Shown one piece after another: positions 766 through 13,617 of a DNA stretch of 64,000 bases (its first letter is position 1; the number at the start of each line of letters is the position of its first letter). Made by a program: the position numbers and the translations under genes. The stretch comes from a virus, in the IMG/VR virus record IMGVR_UViG_3300028590_000013, positions 1-64,000 of that record; one strand, given 5' to 3'. A model generated the notes under the pieces. That model had not been told where the DNA came from, did no database searches, and saw only the letters and a program-made list of their open reading frames with translations.

Positions 766-1500
766 ATGTTCGGCAAAAACCCCATTCGCGGCATCCTCCG
801 CGACCCCCTCAATCTCGCCGTGGAGGACATCTTCTACACGATCCAAGGCGAGGGCCCGCAAGCCGGGCGCCCGGCCCTCTTCATCCGCCTCGCCGGCTGC
901 AATCTCGCCTGTCATTTCTGCGACACGCAATTCGAGAGCAAAGCCGACATGCCCGAGACCGTCGTGGATCTGCTCGAACGCATTTTCGATACCACCACGC
1001 CGAAGCAGCGCGAACTCGTAGTCATCACGGGCGGCGAGCCCATGCGGCAAGATTGGTCGGGGCTTGCCCGCGTTCTCCTCAAGGGCGGCACGGATCTCAT
1101 CCAGGTCGAGACGGCTGGTACTCTCTGGCAGCCGGGCCTCGCCGAGTTCATTGAATCCGGCGACGTTCAGCTTGTGTGCAGCCCCAAGACGCCCCAAGTG
1201 CACCGCCTCATCTCTGAATCCTGCGCGCACTGGAAATACATCATCCGTGGTGGCGAAGTCGATGTCGAAGACGGGCTCCCCAACCGCGGCACGCAGGTCG
1301 CTACGCTTGGCAAGCCCAGCCGCCTCTACCGGCCCTGGGACAGAGGCGCTTGCGATGACTACGGCACCGTGTGGCTCTCGCCTTGCGACGACTACGACGC
1401 TGAGCTGAACAAGGTGAATCTGGAACTCGCACGGGATCTGTGCCTGAAGCACGGCTACCGCTTGAGTCTGCAGATGCACAAGCTCATTCAGGTGCCGTGA
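766..1500 (+). CDS. queE: 7-carboxy-7-deazaguanine (CDG) synthase, radical SAM
   Basis: A protein of 244 residues, normal for the family. QueE rearranges 6-carboxy-tetrahydropterin to CDG, the first committed 7-deazaguanine. The radical-SAM cluster motif CNLACHFC (C45, C49, C52) is intact with the CX3CX2C spacing used by this family. The leading FYTIQGEG and a following ITGGEP segment (SAM binding) are also typical. It sits about 8 kb from queC, folE and the DpdA-like gene, so the pathway is spread over the early block. The stop overlaps the next ATG (ATGA). Confidence 0.93.
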   Translation: MFGKNPIRGILRDPLNLAVEDIFYTIQGEGPQAGRPALFIRLAGCNLACHFCDTQFESKADMPETVVDLLERIFDTTTPKQRELVVITGGEPMRQDWSGLARVLLKGGTDLIQVETAGTLWQPGLAEFIESGDVQLVCSPKTPQVHRLISESCAHWKYIIRGGEVDVEDGLPNRGTQVATLGKPSRLYRPWDRGACDDYGTVWLSPCDDYDAELNKVNLELARDLCLKHGYRLSLQMHKLIQVP

Positions 1501-8606: not shown

Positions 8607-9611
8607 ATGAAGAGCGCAATCTATTCCGAACTCAGCAAGGCCGCAGGCATCAAATTCAAGACCGGTGAAGACCTGCAGGCTTACTTCATCGAACTCCTGA
8701 AGGGCATTGCCAGCCTCAAGGATCCCGAGTGGGACGCCCTCAGCGTCGAAGCCCAGGACTGGTACAACGCCGCCGCCAAGGCGAAGAACAAGAAGGAGCC
8801 CATCGTCGACTTCCCCGACCTGGAAAAGGAGAAGGAAGAGGAGGAAGCTCCCCGCCGCTCGCGCCGCAAGGCCGAAGAAGAAGAAGACGACAAGGGCAGC
8901 GAAGAGCTGATGCTCAAGGTGGGCGACGAAGTCACCGTGGTGAACGCCAAGGGCAAGGAACGCGTGGGCACGATCGTCGAGCAGGACGCCAAGATGCTTG
9001 TCATCAAGGACAACGGCGACGGCGAAGAATACGAATACACGCGCGCCACGCTGCAGTCGATCACCAAGAAGAACGGCGACGTCGAAGAAGACCAGCCGCG
9101 TCGTTCGCGCCGCAAGGCCGAAGAAGAAGACGAACCGGCCGTGCCCGAGATCAAGAAGGGCGACAAGGTCGTGGCCGTCACCAAGCGCGGCAAGACCATC
9201 AAGGGCGTGGTCGAGAAGATCAGCGACGACATGGTGAGCATCGACGACGGTGACGACGTCTGGGACTTCGAGAAGGAGCGCCTGGAAAGCCTGCTGCCCG
9301 ATGGCGTCACCAAGACCGTGAAGAAGGAAGAAGACGGCGACGAAGCCCCGCGCCGTGGCCGCACCTCGACCAAGGAAAAGGAAGAACCCAAGGAAGAAGG
9401 CGCGCGCACCCGCTCCAGCAACAAGGAAGGCGTGAGCATCGGTCAGCGTATCCGCGAGCTGATCGCCGAAGACCTCGACATCACCGAAGAAGCCATCGGC
9501 AAGCAGCTCAAGAAGGAAGGCATCGACTTCAAGGAGAATACGCTGAACCTGAACTACAAGGAATCGATGAAGTTCATCGCCATCCTGAAGGCAGCGAAGC
9601 GCCTGAAGTAA
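8607..9611 (+). CDS. Highly charged protein with two KOW/SH3-like repeats
   Basis: A protein of 334 residues. Two similar beta-barrel-like modules are visible: VGDEVTVVNAKGKERVGTIV (about residues 109-160) and KGDKVVAVTKRGKTIKGVV (about 188-235). Each follows a PRRSRRKAEEE linker, and a third charged linker precedes a helical C-terminal domain (about 280-334). The modules look like KOW/Tudor-type folds used by nucleic-acid or polymerase-binding proteins. The Arg-Ser and Lys-Glu arms resemble those of the SSB encoded further right. It stands alone between a promoter-like box and a terminator, which suggests high expression. Function unknown. Confidence 0.7.
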   Translation: MKSAIYSELSKAAGIKFKTGEDLQAYFIELLKGIASLKDPEWDALSVEAQDWYNAAAKAKNKKEPIVDFPDLEKEKEEEEAPRRSRRKAEEEEDDKGSEELMLKVGDEVTVVNAKGKERVGTIVEQDAKMLVIKDNGDGEEYEYTRATLQSITKKNGDVEEDQPRRSRRKAEEEDEPAVPEIKKGDKVVAVTKRGKTIKGVVEKISDDMVSIDDGDDVWDFEKERLESLLPDGVTKTVKKEEDGDEAPRRGRTSTKEKEEPKEEGARTRSSNKEGVSIGQRIRELIAEDLDITEEAIGKQLKKEGIDFKENTLNLNYKESMKFIAILKAAKRLK

Positions 9612-9694: not shown

Positions 9695-10555
9695 ATGAGC
9701 ACCAAAATCCTCGTCGTCCTCAGTGGCGGCCAAGACTCGACCACCTGCCTTGCCATCGCCATGCAGATGAAGGCCACCGGGCAGGTCGACGAAGTCCATG
9801 CCCTCACCTTCGACTACGGCCAGCGCCACCGCCGCGAAATCGACGCCGCCTACCAGATCGGACGGCTTGCCGGCGTCGACAGCCATGAGTTCCTCGAAGT
9901 CGGCGCCATCCTCAAAGGCACGAGCCCGCTCACGGATAGCAGCCAAGAACTCGAGCAATACGCGGACCACGACAGCATGGCCGCCATCATCGGCGACCGC
10001 GTGGAGAAGACCTTCGTGCCGATGCGCAACGCCCTCTTTCTAACCCTCGCCGCGAATCGCGCCGTGGTGATGGGGGCCAAGGCGATCATGACCGGCGTGT
10101 GCGAGGCCGACAACGCCAACTACCCGGACTGCCGCTATGACTTCATTAGCGCCCAGCAGGCGGCCATCAACGAGGCCTTGGGCTTCAGCGGCGGTGACGA
10201 TGGCTACATCGACATCATCACGCCGCTCATGTTCCTGAGCAAGGCGCAAAGCATCAAGCATCTGTTGAACATCGGTGGTGCCGAGCAATTCGCCTGGCTT
10301 GCCTTCAGCCACACGGCCTACGACGGCCAGTATCCGCCCCTGGGCAAGGATCACGCCACGGTGCTGCGTGCCCATGGCTTTGAAGAGGCTGGCTACCCGG
10401 ACCCCCTTATCTTGCGTGCCGTGATGGAGGGAGCCATGCCACGCCCCACCACGAAGAACTACGAGCGCGTGCCCCACGGCGTGATGCGCGCCATCGACGC
10501 TCACATCGCGACCAGCCTGAGCTGGTCGAAGGAAGGGGTGAAGAGCAATGGCTGA
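9695..10555 (+). CDS. queC: QueC-like preQ0 synthase lacking zinc cysteines
   Basis: A protein of 286 residues. QueC uses ATP to turn CDG into the amide ADG and then preQ0. The PP-loop SGGQDST (10-16) and the conserved CEADNANYPDCRYDF segment (136-150) are present. The C-terminal zinc region is not: where QueC normally has SCY, PCGXCXXC and LRAXGF, this protein reads SHTAYDG, PPLGKDHAT and LRAHGF (205-229), with no cysteine after C146. The surrounding frame is well kept, so this is substitution rather than deletion. The protein may be structurally adapted or may stop at the amide. The 3' end overlaps folE by 8 bases. Confidence 0.88.
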   Translation: MSTKILVVLSGGQDSTTCLAIAMQMKATGQVDEVHALTFDYGQRHRREIDAAYQIGRLAGVDSHEFLEVGAILKGTSPLTDSSQELEQYADHDSMAAIIGDRVEKTFVPMRNALFLTLAANRAVVMGAKAIMTGVCEADNANYPDCRYDFISAQQAAINEALGFSGGDDGYIDIITPLMFLSKAQSIKHLLNIGGAEQFAWLAFSHTAYDGQYPPLGKDHATVLRAHGFEEAGYPDPLILRAVMEGAMPRPTTKNYERVPHGVMRAIDAHIATSLSWSKEGVKSNG

Positions 10556-11156
10556 AAGCAAGGGCCCCTACAAGCGTTTCCAGCCCATGGTGGGTGGTGC
10601 CATCGACAGCGCCGCCTACGCCACGGAAGGCCTCTTGCGGGCCATTGGCGAGGATCCCACGCGCCCAGGCTTGCGTGAGACGCCGATGCGCGTTGCCAAA
10701 GCCTGGGCCGAGTGGACGAGCGGCTACAGCCAGGATCCCGGTGAGATCCTCAAGACGTTCGAGGATGGCGCTGAGGGCGTGGATGAGATGGTGGTGGTCA
10801 AGGACATCGAGATCTACAGCCACTGCGAGCATCACATGGCGCCCTTCTTCGGCGTGGCGCACATCGCCTACATCCCCAACGGCAAAATCGTGGGCCTCTC
10901 GAAGCTCGCTCGCCTTGCCGACATCTTCGCCCATCGCCTGCAGGTGCAAGAGCGCCTAACTAACGACATTGCCAATGCGCTGGTGGAGCACCTGAACCCC
11001 GTGGGCGTGGGCGTCGTCGTTGAAGCCCGCCACTTTTGCATGTGCTCGCGCGGCATCAAGAAGCAAGGCTCCTCCACGATCACCTCCGCGCTCCGCGGTG
11101 CCATCAAGGACAAGGCCGAGGCCCGCGCCGAGTTCATGGCCTTTGTGAAGGGCTGA
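10548..11156 (+). CDS. folE: GTP cyclohydrolase I
   Basis: A protein of 202 residues, close to the usual length. FolE converts GTP to dihydroneopterin triphosphate, the entry to both folate and 7-deazaguanine synthesis. Zinc ligands C93 and H96 (SHCEHHMAPF) and C164 (HFCMC) are in place, and the substrate loop GSSTITSALRG is intact. It directly follows queC and precedes the DpdA-like genes, which points to a modification role rather than folate. No queD was found in the window, so the host QueD would have to supply the intermediate step. Confidence 0.95.
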   Translation: MAESKGPYKRFQPMVGGAIDSAAYATEGLLRAIGEDPTRPGLRETPMRVAKAWAEWTSGYSQDPGEILKTFEDGAEGVDEMVVVKDIEIYSHCEHHMAPFFGVAHIAYIPNGKIVGLSKLARLADIFAHRLQVQERLTNDIANALVEHLNPVGVGVVVEARHFCMCSRGIKKQGSSTITSALRGAIKDKAEARAEFMAFVKG

Positions 11157-11157
11157 A

Positions 11158-11283
11158 ATGAACACGTGGATGGCCGGGGGAGATAACAGCACTTGGGCCT
11201 TCAAGGCTCGCCTGGAGGGCGACCATCCGCGCACGCTTCTCTCTTTCCATTACCTCTCTCTCTCTCTCTGGGCACGAGCATGA
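11158..11283 (+). CDS. 41-residue DpdA N-terminal-like mini-ORF
   Basis: Begins one base after the folE stop and ends in TGA overlapping the DpdA-core ATG (ATGA). The product starts with MNTWMAGGDNSTWAF and ends LLSFHYL-SLSLWARA. The strand-loop-strand layout (MAGG ... LLSFHYL) is what I would expect just before the FLDSGAYS strand with which the core begins. It is one base out of frame with the core; a -1 shift or loss of one CT unit at 11254-11269 would join them. Three similar mini-genes follow at 12642-13216. Confidence 0.6.
   Translation: MNTWMAGGDNSTWAFKARLEGDHPRTLLSFHYLSLSLWARA
11254..11269 (+). repeat. (CT)8 dinucleotide tract
   Basis: Eight uninterrupted CT units at the junction of the mini-ORF and the DpdA core. 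In the mini-ORF frame it encodes LSLSL. Loss of one unit (2 bases) makes the two frames continuous. Confidence 0.9.
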
Positions 11284-12080
11284 TTGATCCCTCCGAGTTT
11301 TCTTTCTTCCTCGACTCCGGGGCCTACTCGGCATGGAGTCGAGGCACGGCCATTGACATCGACGAGTACATCGCATTCATCAAGGCCAACATCGAGCACA
11401 TCGAGGTCTACGCCTGCCTTGACGTGATCCCTGGATCACCAGGGAAAGCGGCCACGGAGCGCGAGCGCCAACAAGCCGCAGAGGAGACGTGGAAGAACTA
11501 CCTCTACATGAAGGCTGAGGGCCTCGATCCCCTTCCCGTCTATCACTACGGAGAGGACTACGCCTTCTTCCAGCGCATGCTGGACTACGGCTGCGACTAT
11601 GTCGGCATTGGAGGCCTCGTGGGCGTTCCTGGAGCGATGCGCAAGTATTGGCTGGATCGCCTCTTCAAGCGCATCACCGATGCCGACGGAAAGCCGCAGA
11701 TCAAGACGCACGGCTTTGGCATGACGTCTGTCTCTCTGATCTTTCGCTATCCCTGGTATAGCGTAGACAGCACGAGCTGGATCCAGGCCACGGCCAATGG
11801 TGGCATCCTCTTGCCTGCAATGCGTGGCGGTGAGTTCGTCTTCAACGAAACTCCGATGACCGTGGCTGTGTCCAATCAGAAGGGCACCACTCAGCTGAGC
11901 CCAGCCATGCGCAGCATCGTTGATCGATGGCTGGCGGTGTGCGGCAAGACCTATGCGGAGGTCAGCGAGCACTACTACCACCGCGCCGTGTGCAATGTGA
12001 CCTTCTTCAAGATGGTCAGCGAAACCAAAGCCGCCTCGGGATTCAAGCCCGATGGCATCCGTAAGCAAAGCCTCTGGTAA
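11280..12080 (+). CDS. dpdA: DpdA-like DNA 7-deazaguanine transglycosylase (core)
   Basis: A core of 266 residues with the TGT-like barrel layout of phage DpdA proteins: FLDSGAYSAWSRG (D12), VYACLDVIPG (D48), LPVYHYGED (85-93), VGIGGLVG (108-115), KTHGFGM (142-148) and YSVDSTSW (D163). D12/D48 and D163 are candidates for the catalytic aspartates. The enzyme would exchange guanine in DNA for a 7-deazaguanine made by the neighbouring FolE, QueC and QueE. The N-terminus begins abruptly at the strand before FLDSG, and the missing part seems to be the overlapping 41-residue ORF. No ribosome site of its own is obvious, so translational coupling is likely. Confidence 0.8.
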   Translation: MIDPSEFSFFLDSGAYSAWSRGTAIDIDEYIAFIKANIEHIEVYACLDVIPGSPGKAATERERQQAAEETWKNYLYMKAEGLDPLPVYHYGEDYAFFQRMLDYGCDYVGIGGLVGVPGAMRKYWLDRLFKRITDADGKPQIKTHGFGMTSVSLIFRYPWYSVDSTSWIQATANGGILLPAMRGGEFVFNETPMTVAVSNQKGTTQLSPAMRSIVDRWLAVCGKTYAEVSEHYYHRAVCNVTFFKMVSETKAASGFKPDGIRKQSLW

Positions 12081-12090
12081 GGAGACCACC

Positions 12091-12642
12091 ATGGCAAAAG
12101 GAAACGTCAGCCCCCTTGCGAAGCGCTGTAAGGCCGACTATGAAAAGCTGGGCCGCCTCCACGCCCGCACAGGCGCCGCAAAAGTCCCCTTCCCCCGTGA
12201 TGCCAGTTCCTGGCAGGCAAAAGCCTATTGGGCCGCATACGACGCTGATAAGGCTGAAGAAGAGAAGACACGCGAAGCCTTCGGAACCGGTGAAGAAGAT
12301 ACGGCCCAAGCTGAGGAGTTCTTCGGCGTCATGGACAAACAAATAGGCCGCATTGCCGAGGCTGCGGGACTGAGCAAAGAAGAGCTGGTTGGGCAGCAGA
12401 AGCCTGCCAAGATCAGCGCGGTCGTGAAAGTGACCACGAACCTCCAGCCCAGCGGTGTTTTCGATTTGGGTCTTCTCTTCGGGATGGATCTGAGCGAACT
12501 GCCTCCAGGTGCACGCGAGCACGTGCGCGTCCTGCGAGTGGCCGTGCTTAAGGAGACCAAGCCCCAACGCAAACAGCGGCTCAAGGCGGCCATAACCCGT
12601 ATAGCCCTGCGCCACACCCCAACCGTCAAGGCGGCAAGCTGA
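12091..12642 (+). CDS. Hypothetical protein downstream of dpdA
   Basis: A protein of 183 residues with a clear AAGGAGACCACC ribosome site. The first 55 residues (HARTGAAKVPFPRDASSWQA, then KAYWAAYDAD) resemble short RMF-like or phage WxxAY segments, but this is weak. The rest is mixed, with an acidic helix and a basic C-terminus. The stop overlaps the next ATG (TGATG), tying it to the mini-gene cluster that follows. Confidence 0.65.
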   Translation: MAKGNVSPLAKRCKADYEKLGRLHARTGAAKVPFPRDASSWQAKAYWAAYDADKAEEEKTREAFGTGEEDTAQAEEFFGVMDKQIGRIAEAAGLSKEELVGQQKPAKISAVVKVTTNLQPSGVFDLGLLFGMDLSELPPGAREHVRVLRVAVLKETKPQRKQRLKAAITRIALRHTPTVKAAS

Positions 12643-12857
12643 TGCGCGTCTACCTTGCATCAGGCAACGCGAACTATGCCAGCGAAAATGATGGCTATGA
12701 GAAAGCGTTGCGGATGGCAGAGCACAAACACACCCTCTATAGTTTTATCTGCTTAACAGGCCTCCAGCGCCTCCCCATATATGAAAGTCTTTCTGGTAGT
12801 CGGAGCAGCGAACTCGTGGCACTCAAGCGGGTGGGGAGCCGCAGTAAGAGCGGCTGA
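12642..12857 (+). CDS. DpdA N-domain-like mini-gene A
   Basis: A protein of 71 residues. It starts MRVYLASGNANYASENDGYE and has TLYSFICL at about 31-38, the same strand-loop-strand plan as the 41-residue ORF at 11158. No FLDSGA core follows. The 3' part overlaps mini-gene B by 77 bases in another frame and looks unconserved. It may be a small domain protein or a decaying duplicate. Confidence 0.5.
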   Translation: MRVYLASGNANYASENDGYEKALRMAEHKHTLYSFICLTGLQRLPIYESLSGSRSSELVALKRVGSRSKSG

Positions 12858-13062
12858 AGTCGACCGCGTGCTCGTGAGCTTCGTGGAGTACGTCAAGAGC
12901 CAACGGCAAGCCATGGCTATTGAAGTCCCCTCAGGAGCCTATGCCCCAATCATCAACCGTGACGCTCGCGCCGTTGAAGAGTTCGCAGGCCTCTTGAACC
13001 TGGGGCGCAATCTTCGGGAGACCTTGGAGGGTGACGATGAAGATCTTCCTCGCCGGGCTTGA
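12781..13062 (+). CDS. DpdA N-domain-like mini-gene B
   Basis: A protein of 93 residues. It starts MKVFLVVGAANSWHSSGWG and continues to RVLVSFVEYV (about 30-39), again the N-terminal plan alone. A longer acidic helical tail follows (RDARAVEEFAGLL). No strong ribosome site; it may be reached by coupling from mini-gene A, which overlaps its start. Confidence 0.5.
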   Translation: MKVFLVVGAANSWHSSGWGAAVRAAEVDRVLVSFVEYVKSQRQAMAIEVPSGAYAPIINRDARAVEEFAGLLNLGRNLRETLEGDDEDLPRRA

Positions 13063-13216
13063 TGCCAGCCACCTTGCAAGCAGGACCAACGGCTACACCC
13101 AGAGCGCCCACGTCTTCCCCCACGTTCTCGTTTCATTCTTTTTCTACGTCGATCCACAGAGTCATGCGCGGCAGAGCCCGCAGAACATCATCCCACCCGT
13201 GAAGGAAACCAAGTGA
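13037..13216 (+). CDS. DpdA N-domain-like mini-gene C
   Basis: A protein of 59 residues. It starts MKIFLAGLDASHLASRTNGY and reaches HVLVSFFFYV near 30-39, the best match of the four to a DpdA-type first strand pair, then ends in a Pro-rich tail. The ATG at 13037 follows GGAGGGTGAC. The stop overlaps the next GTG (GTGA). Confidence 0.55.
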   Translation: MKIFLAGLDASHLASRTNGYTQSAHVFPHVLVSFFFYVDPQSHARQSPQNIIPPVKETK

Positions 13217-13617
13217 ACAAGAAGCTCTATCTCTGCGGCCCCATTCATGGGCTTAGCGACGCCGAGTGCAACAACTGGCGCAAGTATGTCACCGCCAAGT
13301 GGAGCGGCGGCGTGATCGATCCCATGCGCCGTGATGCCCGCGGTCGCATGCACGAGCCGGGCGTTGCCAAAGAAGTCGTGGAGGCCGACAAGGCGGACAT
13401 TCTCGAAGCCTCGGCGGTCATCGTTTACTACGCCTTCCCCAGCGTGGGAACGAGCATGGAGATCCTCTTCGCCTGGGAGCAGCACAAGCCCATCATCGTC
13501 GTCAATGCCTCCATGCAGTACGACAAGGATCTCAGCCTGTGGCTGCAGTACCACGCCACGGTGATCGTCACCGGCCTGGACCCAGCTCTCCGCTATCTCG
13601 AAGCCGCTTACAACTGA
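13213..13617 (+). CDS. Nucleoside 2-deoxyribosyltransferase-like protein
   Basis: A protein of 134 residues, the size of this family. It shows the N-terminal strand with YLCGPIHGL, an ADILEASAVIVYY strand and the SVGTSMEILFAW segment that carries the catalytic glutamate in NDT enzymes. Such proteins move or hydrolyse bases on deoxyribose; related phage and bacterial proteins also act on modified or damaged nucleotides. Its place next to the DpdA cluster suggests a role in handling the displaced or modified base, but that is inference. GTG start overlapping the upstream stop. Confidence 0.7.
   Translation: MNKKLYLCGPIHGLSDAECNNWRKYVTAKWSGGVIDPMRRDARGRMHEPGVAKEVVEADKADILEASAVIVYYAFPSVGTSMEILFAWEQHKPIIVVNASMQYDKDLSLWLQYHATVIVTGLDPALRYLEAAYN

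Follow-up and report, generated by a model that had tools for sequence, protein, structure and literature searches.

The window analysed here is a stretch of 64,000 nucleotides from a virus and carries the catalytic core of a DpdA-like enzyme. The core is preceded by a 41-residue open reading frame and accompanied by genes of the preQ0 pathway and by further small reading frames. The features are as follows.

766..1494, + strand: queE-like gene, preQ0 pathway (tblastn of ZHS ZHS_84, 79% identity over 245 aa)
9695..10555, + strand: queC, preQ0 synthase (PF06508, E 8.3e-48)
10548..11156, + strand: folE, GTP cyclohydrolase I, preQ0 pathway (PF01227, E 1.4e-73)
11158..11283, + strand: module E, the 41-aa ORF, abutting the core; from its translation the putative beta1-alpha1-beta2 of the DpdA barrel
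11254..11269, + strand: (CT)8 tract, between the putative beta2 and the core, separating the frames of module and core
11280..12080, + strand: DpdA catalytic core, 266 aa, beta3 to the C-terminus, with its own ATG (phrog_887, E 1e-50)
12642..12857, + strand: candidate module A (MRVYLASGNANYASENDGYEKALRMAEHKHTLYSF...)
12781..13062, + strand: module B (MKVFLVVGAANSWHSSGWGAAVRAAEVDRVLVSFVEYV...), with homologues in ZHS (ZHS_63), L022, L024, L025, L026, L028 and L030
13037..13216, + strand: module C (MKIFLAGLDASHLASRTNGYTQSAHVFPHVLVSFFFYVDP...), ranked first by profile A7 within the window clade (E 4.8e-4)

Since folE, queC, the queE-like gene and a queD-like gene (G000 66822-67319, beyond the window) are all present in the genome, the preQ0 pathway is complete. 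Directly 3' of the modules, at 13213-13617, lies a nucleoside 2-deoxyribosyltransferase-like gene (PF05014), which also occurs in Edwardsiella phage ZHS and is possibly linked to 7-deazaguanine metabolism. Just upstream of queC, positions 8607-9611 encode a hypothetical protein that is acidic and rich in lysine; it has an internal repeat, seen as a 38-bp match of ~8850 with 9096-9133.

Module E starts 1 nt past the folE stop codon and is translated as MNTWMAGGDNSTWAFKARLEGDHPRTLLSFHYLSLSLWARA, followed by a TGA (11281-11283) that overlaps the core ATG (11280) in the sequence ATGA. The (CT)8 tract is the sole dinucleotide tract of at least 10 nt within the 64-kb window, and hence its longest; its length of 16 nt was reached in one of 200 order-1 simulations of the window. 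A search for the window's own CT tract in other contigs delivered unrelated sequences only. The arrangement described in the first-pass annotation, a 41-residue ORF and a DpdA-like core with frames parted at (CT)8 and a TGA/ATG overlap, is present in every element. Its statement that the loss of one CT unit gives a continuous protein also holds: by frame arithmetic 4, 7 or 10 units fuse module E to the core, and the fused product would comprise ~306 aa. With 5, 6, 8, 9 or 11 units the module E ORF stops at nt +1 or +5 of the core ATG. Each tract length tested thus either fuses module E or ends it at the core ATG, so that the start of the core is always open or coupled.

The match of the core to phrog_887 (queuine tRNA-ribosyltransferase) starts at profile position 57, which means that about 56 residues of a typical DpdA are absent from it. 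The N-terminus of typical phage DpdA proteins follows the pattern [KN][IV][YF][LM]A(G/A)...(I)L.S(Y)HY..., then FLDSGAF. The core shares 35-39% identity with the proteins of CAjan, Seurat and others (tblastn), and its dN/dS is ~0.09 (vs ZHS). Its first residue is conserved in six aligned cores, with M1, D12, D48, G111-G112, H144 and D163 invariant in alignment A1. The motif residues DSGA, LD, GG, HGFG and DS are invariant in A1 and also in A3, which includes canonical members; we take the invariant residues to correspond to the catalytic motifs of tRNA-guanine transglycosylases (TGT).

Relatives of the window's own clade share between 56% and 91% core identity with it (L022 91%, ZHS/L023 90%, L024 78%, L025 76%, L027 68%, L026 66%, L028 and L029 61%, L030 56%). 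A single-chain DpdA with an N-terminal beta1-alpha1-beta2, fused in frame from the folE stop, is found in ZHS (L003/L023), L025, L028 and L029; in the window the module lies in another frame at (CT)8. L022, the closest relative, and L024, L027 and L030 have no upstream module and their proteins start at the core, while L026 is cut by the contig end. The relatives, proposed earlier as a check, are therefore mixed, neither all with one uninterrupted gene nor all core-only. To judge from these sequences, the module is optional and exchangeable within the window clade. Module E of ZHS contains an in-frame (AG)6 tract (L003:3720-3731), and the annotated gene start leaves this module out.

The first-pass annotation had proposed that slippage might turn the modification enzyme on and off. 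The frameshift does part beta1-beta2 from the core, and phase-variable modification genes are known in bacteria. However, the core start is kept in all relatives and stays usable at every tract length, the closest relative (91% core identity) lacks an upstream module altogether, core-only DpdA with other modules alongside is common, and the genome of the window holds two or three more modules. Simple on/off phase variation of DNA modification is accordingly rather improbable, and it was rejected as the main reading on the conserved core start and the core-only relatives; the switch is probably of another kind. The further proposal of two separately translated halves is plausible, because core-only DpdA with free-standing modules is common.

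The AlphaFold2 model of the naturally fused protein of L025 (mean pLDDT 85, pTM 0.83) shows eight strands in barrel order, of which the module forms the first two, that is the first beta-alpha-beta; the module part itself reaches a pLDDT of 60-77 only. Best solved matches of the model are tRNA-guanine transglycosylases (7owz, 2ash); a search by sequence found no solved structure matching DpdA. The fold is thus shared with TGTs such as QTRT1/QTRT2, in which both chains are whole barrels. DpdA differs in its substrate, which by homology with CAjan DpdA would be DNA, and in the window the barrel would be divided between chains. The assignment of the 41-residue ORF as a DpdA N-terminus, already made from the letters alone, is supported by its having the plan and position of the relatives' fused extensions and by its rank with profile A7. 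By sequence comparison, module E is identified as the first beta-alpha-beta of the DpdA barrel.

Profile A7 was built from 22 mini-ORFs (small ORFs of the same kind) of distant phages only. Among 2,530 six-frame ORFs of the window clade it ranks module C first and module E fourth, and its best matches are modules C, E and A. The match to module E (E 0.022) is alone not significant, and the assignment rests on position, plan and rank; the match to module A alone (E 2.1) is not significant either. Shuffled controls gave one match at E 0.015 and otherwise values >1. On the canonical set the best matches are DpdA N-termini, and in the complete CAjan genome the single match is the DpdA N-terminus (E 0.0026). 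In records the profile matches only near dpdA, and in two MAGs (2.2 and 2.6 Mb) only on the dpdA contig. A short HMM from canonical N-termini was too weak to detect the modules, whereas the mini-ORF profiles did find them.

The window contains two or three free-standing modules 3' of dpdA (A, B and C). The small-ORF families A-D of the window-clade genomes are mutually homologous by hhalign (probabilities A-B 95%, A-C 91%, B-C 92%, B-D 95%), and L022 and L024 have homologues of module A in the corresponding position. Module C is 81% identical to ZHS_62, with a dN/dS of ~0.05 (vs ZHS); for module B the value is ~0.08 (vs ZHS). These ratios indicate purifying selection on modules B and C. Module E shows little conservation, with 29% identity to its counterpart in ZHS. 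It could be a decaying relic, with the core as complete enzyme and the mini-ORFs in another role, for example as decoys or inhibitors; the divergence of E between window and ZHS and the wide spread of core-only forms speak for this. Against it, the core would miss two of eight barrel strands, the mini-ORFs adjoin dpdA and share homology with the missing part of the barrel, and B and C appear to be selectively maintained. We regard the relic as improbable.

Arrays of mini-ORFs adjoin dpdA in dozens of metagenomic phages. Five lie beside dpdA in L033, four in L034 and one in L035, all distant phages, and ATGA overlaps are frequent in such arrays. With a strict start-plus-beta2 pattern applied to 125 loci, 115 mini-ORF candidates were found on the + strand and 0 on the - strand. 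If DpdA proteins with at most 28 residues ahead of the core motif are termed core-only, 24 loci belong to this type, and 23 of them carry at least one in-frame mini-ORF; no mini-ORFs were found in typical fused Queuovirinae-type DpdA loci. The tested mini-ORFs have no entry in Pfam or PHROGs and two tested types were not found in annotated phage records, so the family is effectively unannotated. Modules from one genome differ among themselves no more than randomly drawn ones do, and no diversifying selection on the repertoires is therefore claimed.

Several other arrangements were observed. In L037, L040, L043 and L044 the N-termini of the fused DpdA proteins (upstream of ~4000) carry two to four tandem modules in one chain, with no dinucleotide tracts. 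L124:4168-4560 and L128:3735-4560 have near-identical flanks and differ by an ORF of ~430 nt inserted between a mini-ORF and the fused DpdA module; the comparison suggests gain or loss of a cassette. L051:2011-3099 encodes a DpdA core without N-terminal module, and a C-terminal stretch (CIYHVASSKDHLGKVLSKELPILISYYHLK) resembles one. A circular permutation in L051 was considered and dropped: AlphaFold2 left the C-terminal candidate unplaced (pLDDT 30-40) and profile A7 supports its beta2 half only.

Dinucleotide tracts are nearly confined to the modules. A whole-record search for (AG)5.5 in 15 records found seven (AG)/(CT) tracts of at least 11 nt, all inside modules; the mini-ORFs of L033 and L034 had been listed before repeats were looked at in them. 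Another 89 loci gave 38 tracts, 35 of them 3' of a module start. Over 117 unique loci (1.03 Mb), 38 of the 40 dinucleotide tracts of at least 11 nt begin within 125 nt of a module-type start, in stretches that make up 3.7% of the bases, and the 39th belongs to a module overlooked by the start pattern (L034/L093 mini d). Since the start pattern was adjusted while loci were still being added, the nominal P of 2e-52 for this enrichment is descriptive only. A chance origin of the tracts was rejected on the simulations, the whole-record search and the 117-locus count. Mere amino-acid preference (RERE in helix 1) might be considered, since the majority of tracts are AG and encode RERE. However, at other positions the encoded residues are IYIY (AT tracts) and SLSL (CT tracts), and out-of-frame copies exist. 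In synonymous resampling with each locus's codon usage only 1.6 of 38 tracts are expected to be kept, so that coding preference does not explain them; this explanation was rejected on the resampling and is most improbable.

Where beta2 lies 3' of the tract, the tract-bearing modules divide into 26 that are in frame and 11 that are not (11/37; own count). In the out-of-frame modules the conserved beta2 is intact in another frame directly after the tract. Nine tract-bearing modules are core-adjacent, in frame in ZHS, L117, L130 and L177 and out of frame in the window, L096, L105, L109 and L183, and all nine loci have a Met 7-10 residues ahead of the core motif. Orthologous VPGGG modules occur in both states: those of L117 and L177 are in frame, whereas those of L105, L109 and L183 are not. 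The core-adjacent module of L102 contains a stop codon while the core is intact. When 2.9 million viral contigs were searched for a core-like motif with an AG tract 65-95 nt ahead of it, five contigs were found, four of them known DpdA loci and the fifth a new one (L183). Tract-length polymorphism was not observed; none of the near-identical contigs compared for it carries a tract. As is characteristic of contingency loci, the tract lies in the reading frame beyond chance, and in-frame and out-of-frame alleles, broken only at the tract, are found across different phages. Phase variation of the modules is well supported by these comparisons, and we infer that slippage occurs within a population. 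Slippage had been suggested in the first-pass annotation and is likely, because such tracts are nearly confined to modules and a good share of modules is out of frame exactly at the tract.

The out-of-frame state of the window could be an assembly or sequencing indel in the CT tract, the real gene being fused as in ZHS. The window is a metagenomic contig, such a tract is error-prone, and four relatives are fused. But the closest relative L022 is without any module, many independently made assemblies have tracts at similar positions, some copies in frame and others out of frame, and the tract and its enrichment stand even if the window allele is wrong. An assembly error is conceivable for the window allele but hardly for the entire tract family; as an explanation of the locus the indel has a low probability.

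Nine of the 11 out-of-frame modules are offset in one direction, as if one unit short, which could stem from mutation bias or from slippage compensation. The strongest rival is slippage of the RNA polymerase or ribosome on the repeat, yielding some fused protein so that fused and separate forms coexist without mutation; mixed products would likewise be expected. Dinucleotide runs permit slippage, the common offset of 9/11 modules agrees with it, and the coupled start allows both products. However, the offsets are of both kinds, with L091, L135 and the window departing from the majority, and a single directional shift can therefore not rescue all modules; the AG, AT and CT units stand at differing positions with no constant slippery motif. 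We consider this rival unlikely.

The reading we favour, and hold to be probable, is a divided-barrel preQ0-DNA transglycosylase (DpdA) in which the (CT)8 switch exchanges the N-terminal module rather than abolishing the enzyme. The core (11280-12080) would supply beta3-beta8 together with the counterparts of the TGT catalytic-motif residues, and a separate module of ~45 aa would provide beta1-alpha1-beta2. The (CT)8 in module E would act as a slipped-strand switch. Read in one frame, E and the core would form a single chain. The two remaining frames bring the end of E onto the ATG of the core, so that the core would still be made, probably by coupled re-initiation. The detached core may then pair in trans with E, A, B or C, and a change of the tract would swap the N-terminal module of the enzyme. 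Most simply, the benefit would be a change in which guanines are modified. Against this explanation count the negative result on tract-length polymorphism, the weak conservation of E, the modest single-profile E-value, the module pLDDT of 60-77 and the same-direction offsets (9/11). A wider view is offered tentatively, as possible but doubtful: a combinatorial enzyme, in which a repertoire of quarter-barrels of ~45 aa, each tract-switched, completes one DpdA core in cis or trans, resets the 7-deazaguanine motifs and gives pre-diversified protection against host restriction.

With the 9g/CAjan-type DpdA of the Queuovirinae (PMC6884629) the window shares the catalytic core and the preQ0 neighbourhood of folE, queC, queD and queE, and the canonical proteins bear the same N-terminal beta-alpha-beta, there fused. 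CAjan DpdA differs in being an uninterrupted chain with no tract and with no mini-ORF in the genome beyond its own N-terminus, whereas in the window the N-terminus is a separate, tract-bearing and apparently exchangeable ORF. CAjan carries the modification on about a third of its guanines and needs DpdA for it (PMC6884629). The title of Kot et al. 2020, as cited in PMC9650216, names two distinct motifs, which, as far as a title goes, indicates that DpdA specificity exists. Phase-variable type I (hsdS) and type III (mod) restriction-modification systems (phasevarions) are alike in the repeat-driven switching of a specificity element of DNA modification, with several alternatives per genome; they differ in that here the genes are of phages, the enzyme exchanges bases, what is switched amounts to a quarter of the catalytic barrel and the effect on specificity is hypothetical. 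The literature searched holds no account of slipped-strand contingency in phage genomes acting on a DNA-camouflage enzyme, nor of an enzyme fold completed by interchangeable fragments from separate tiny genes.

In the window phage and in dozens of distant phages, DpdA appears to be built from a fixed core and small interchangeable pieces, with repeats switching the pieces. If true, this would be a phage slipped-strand contingency system on a DNA-camouflage enzyme, and an enzyme fold finished by interchangeable fragments, each a separate tiny gene. The modules are a concrete candidate for what sets DpdA specificity, and they make this question testable.
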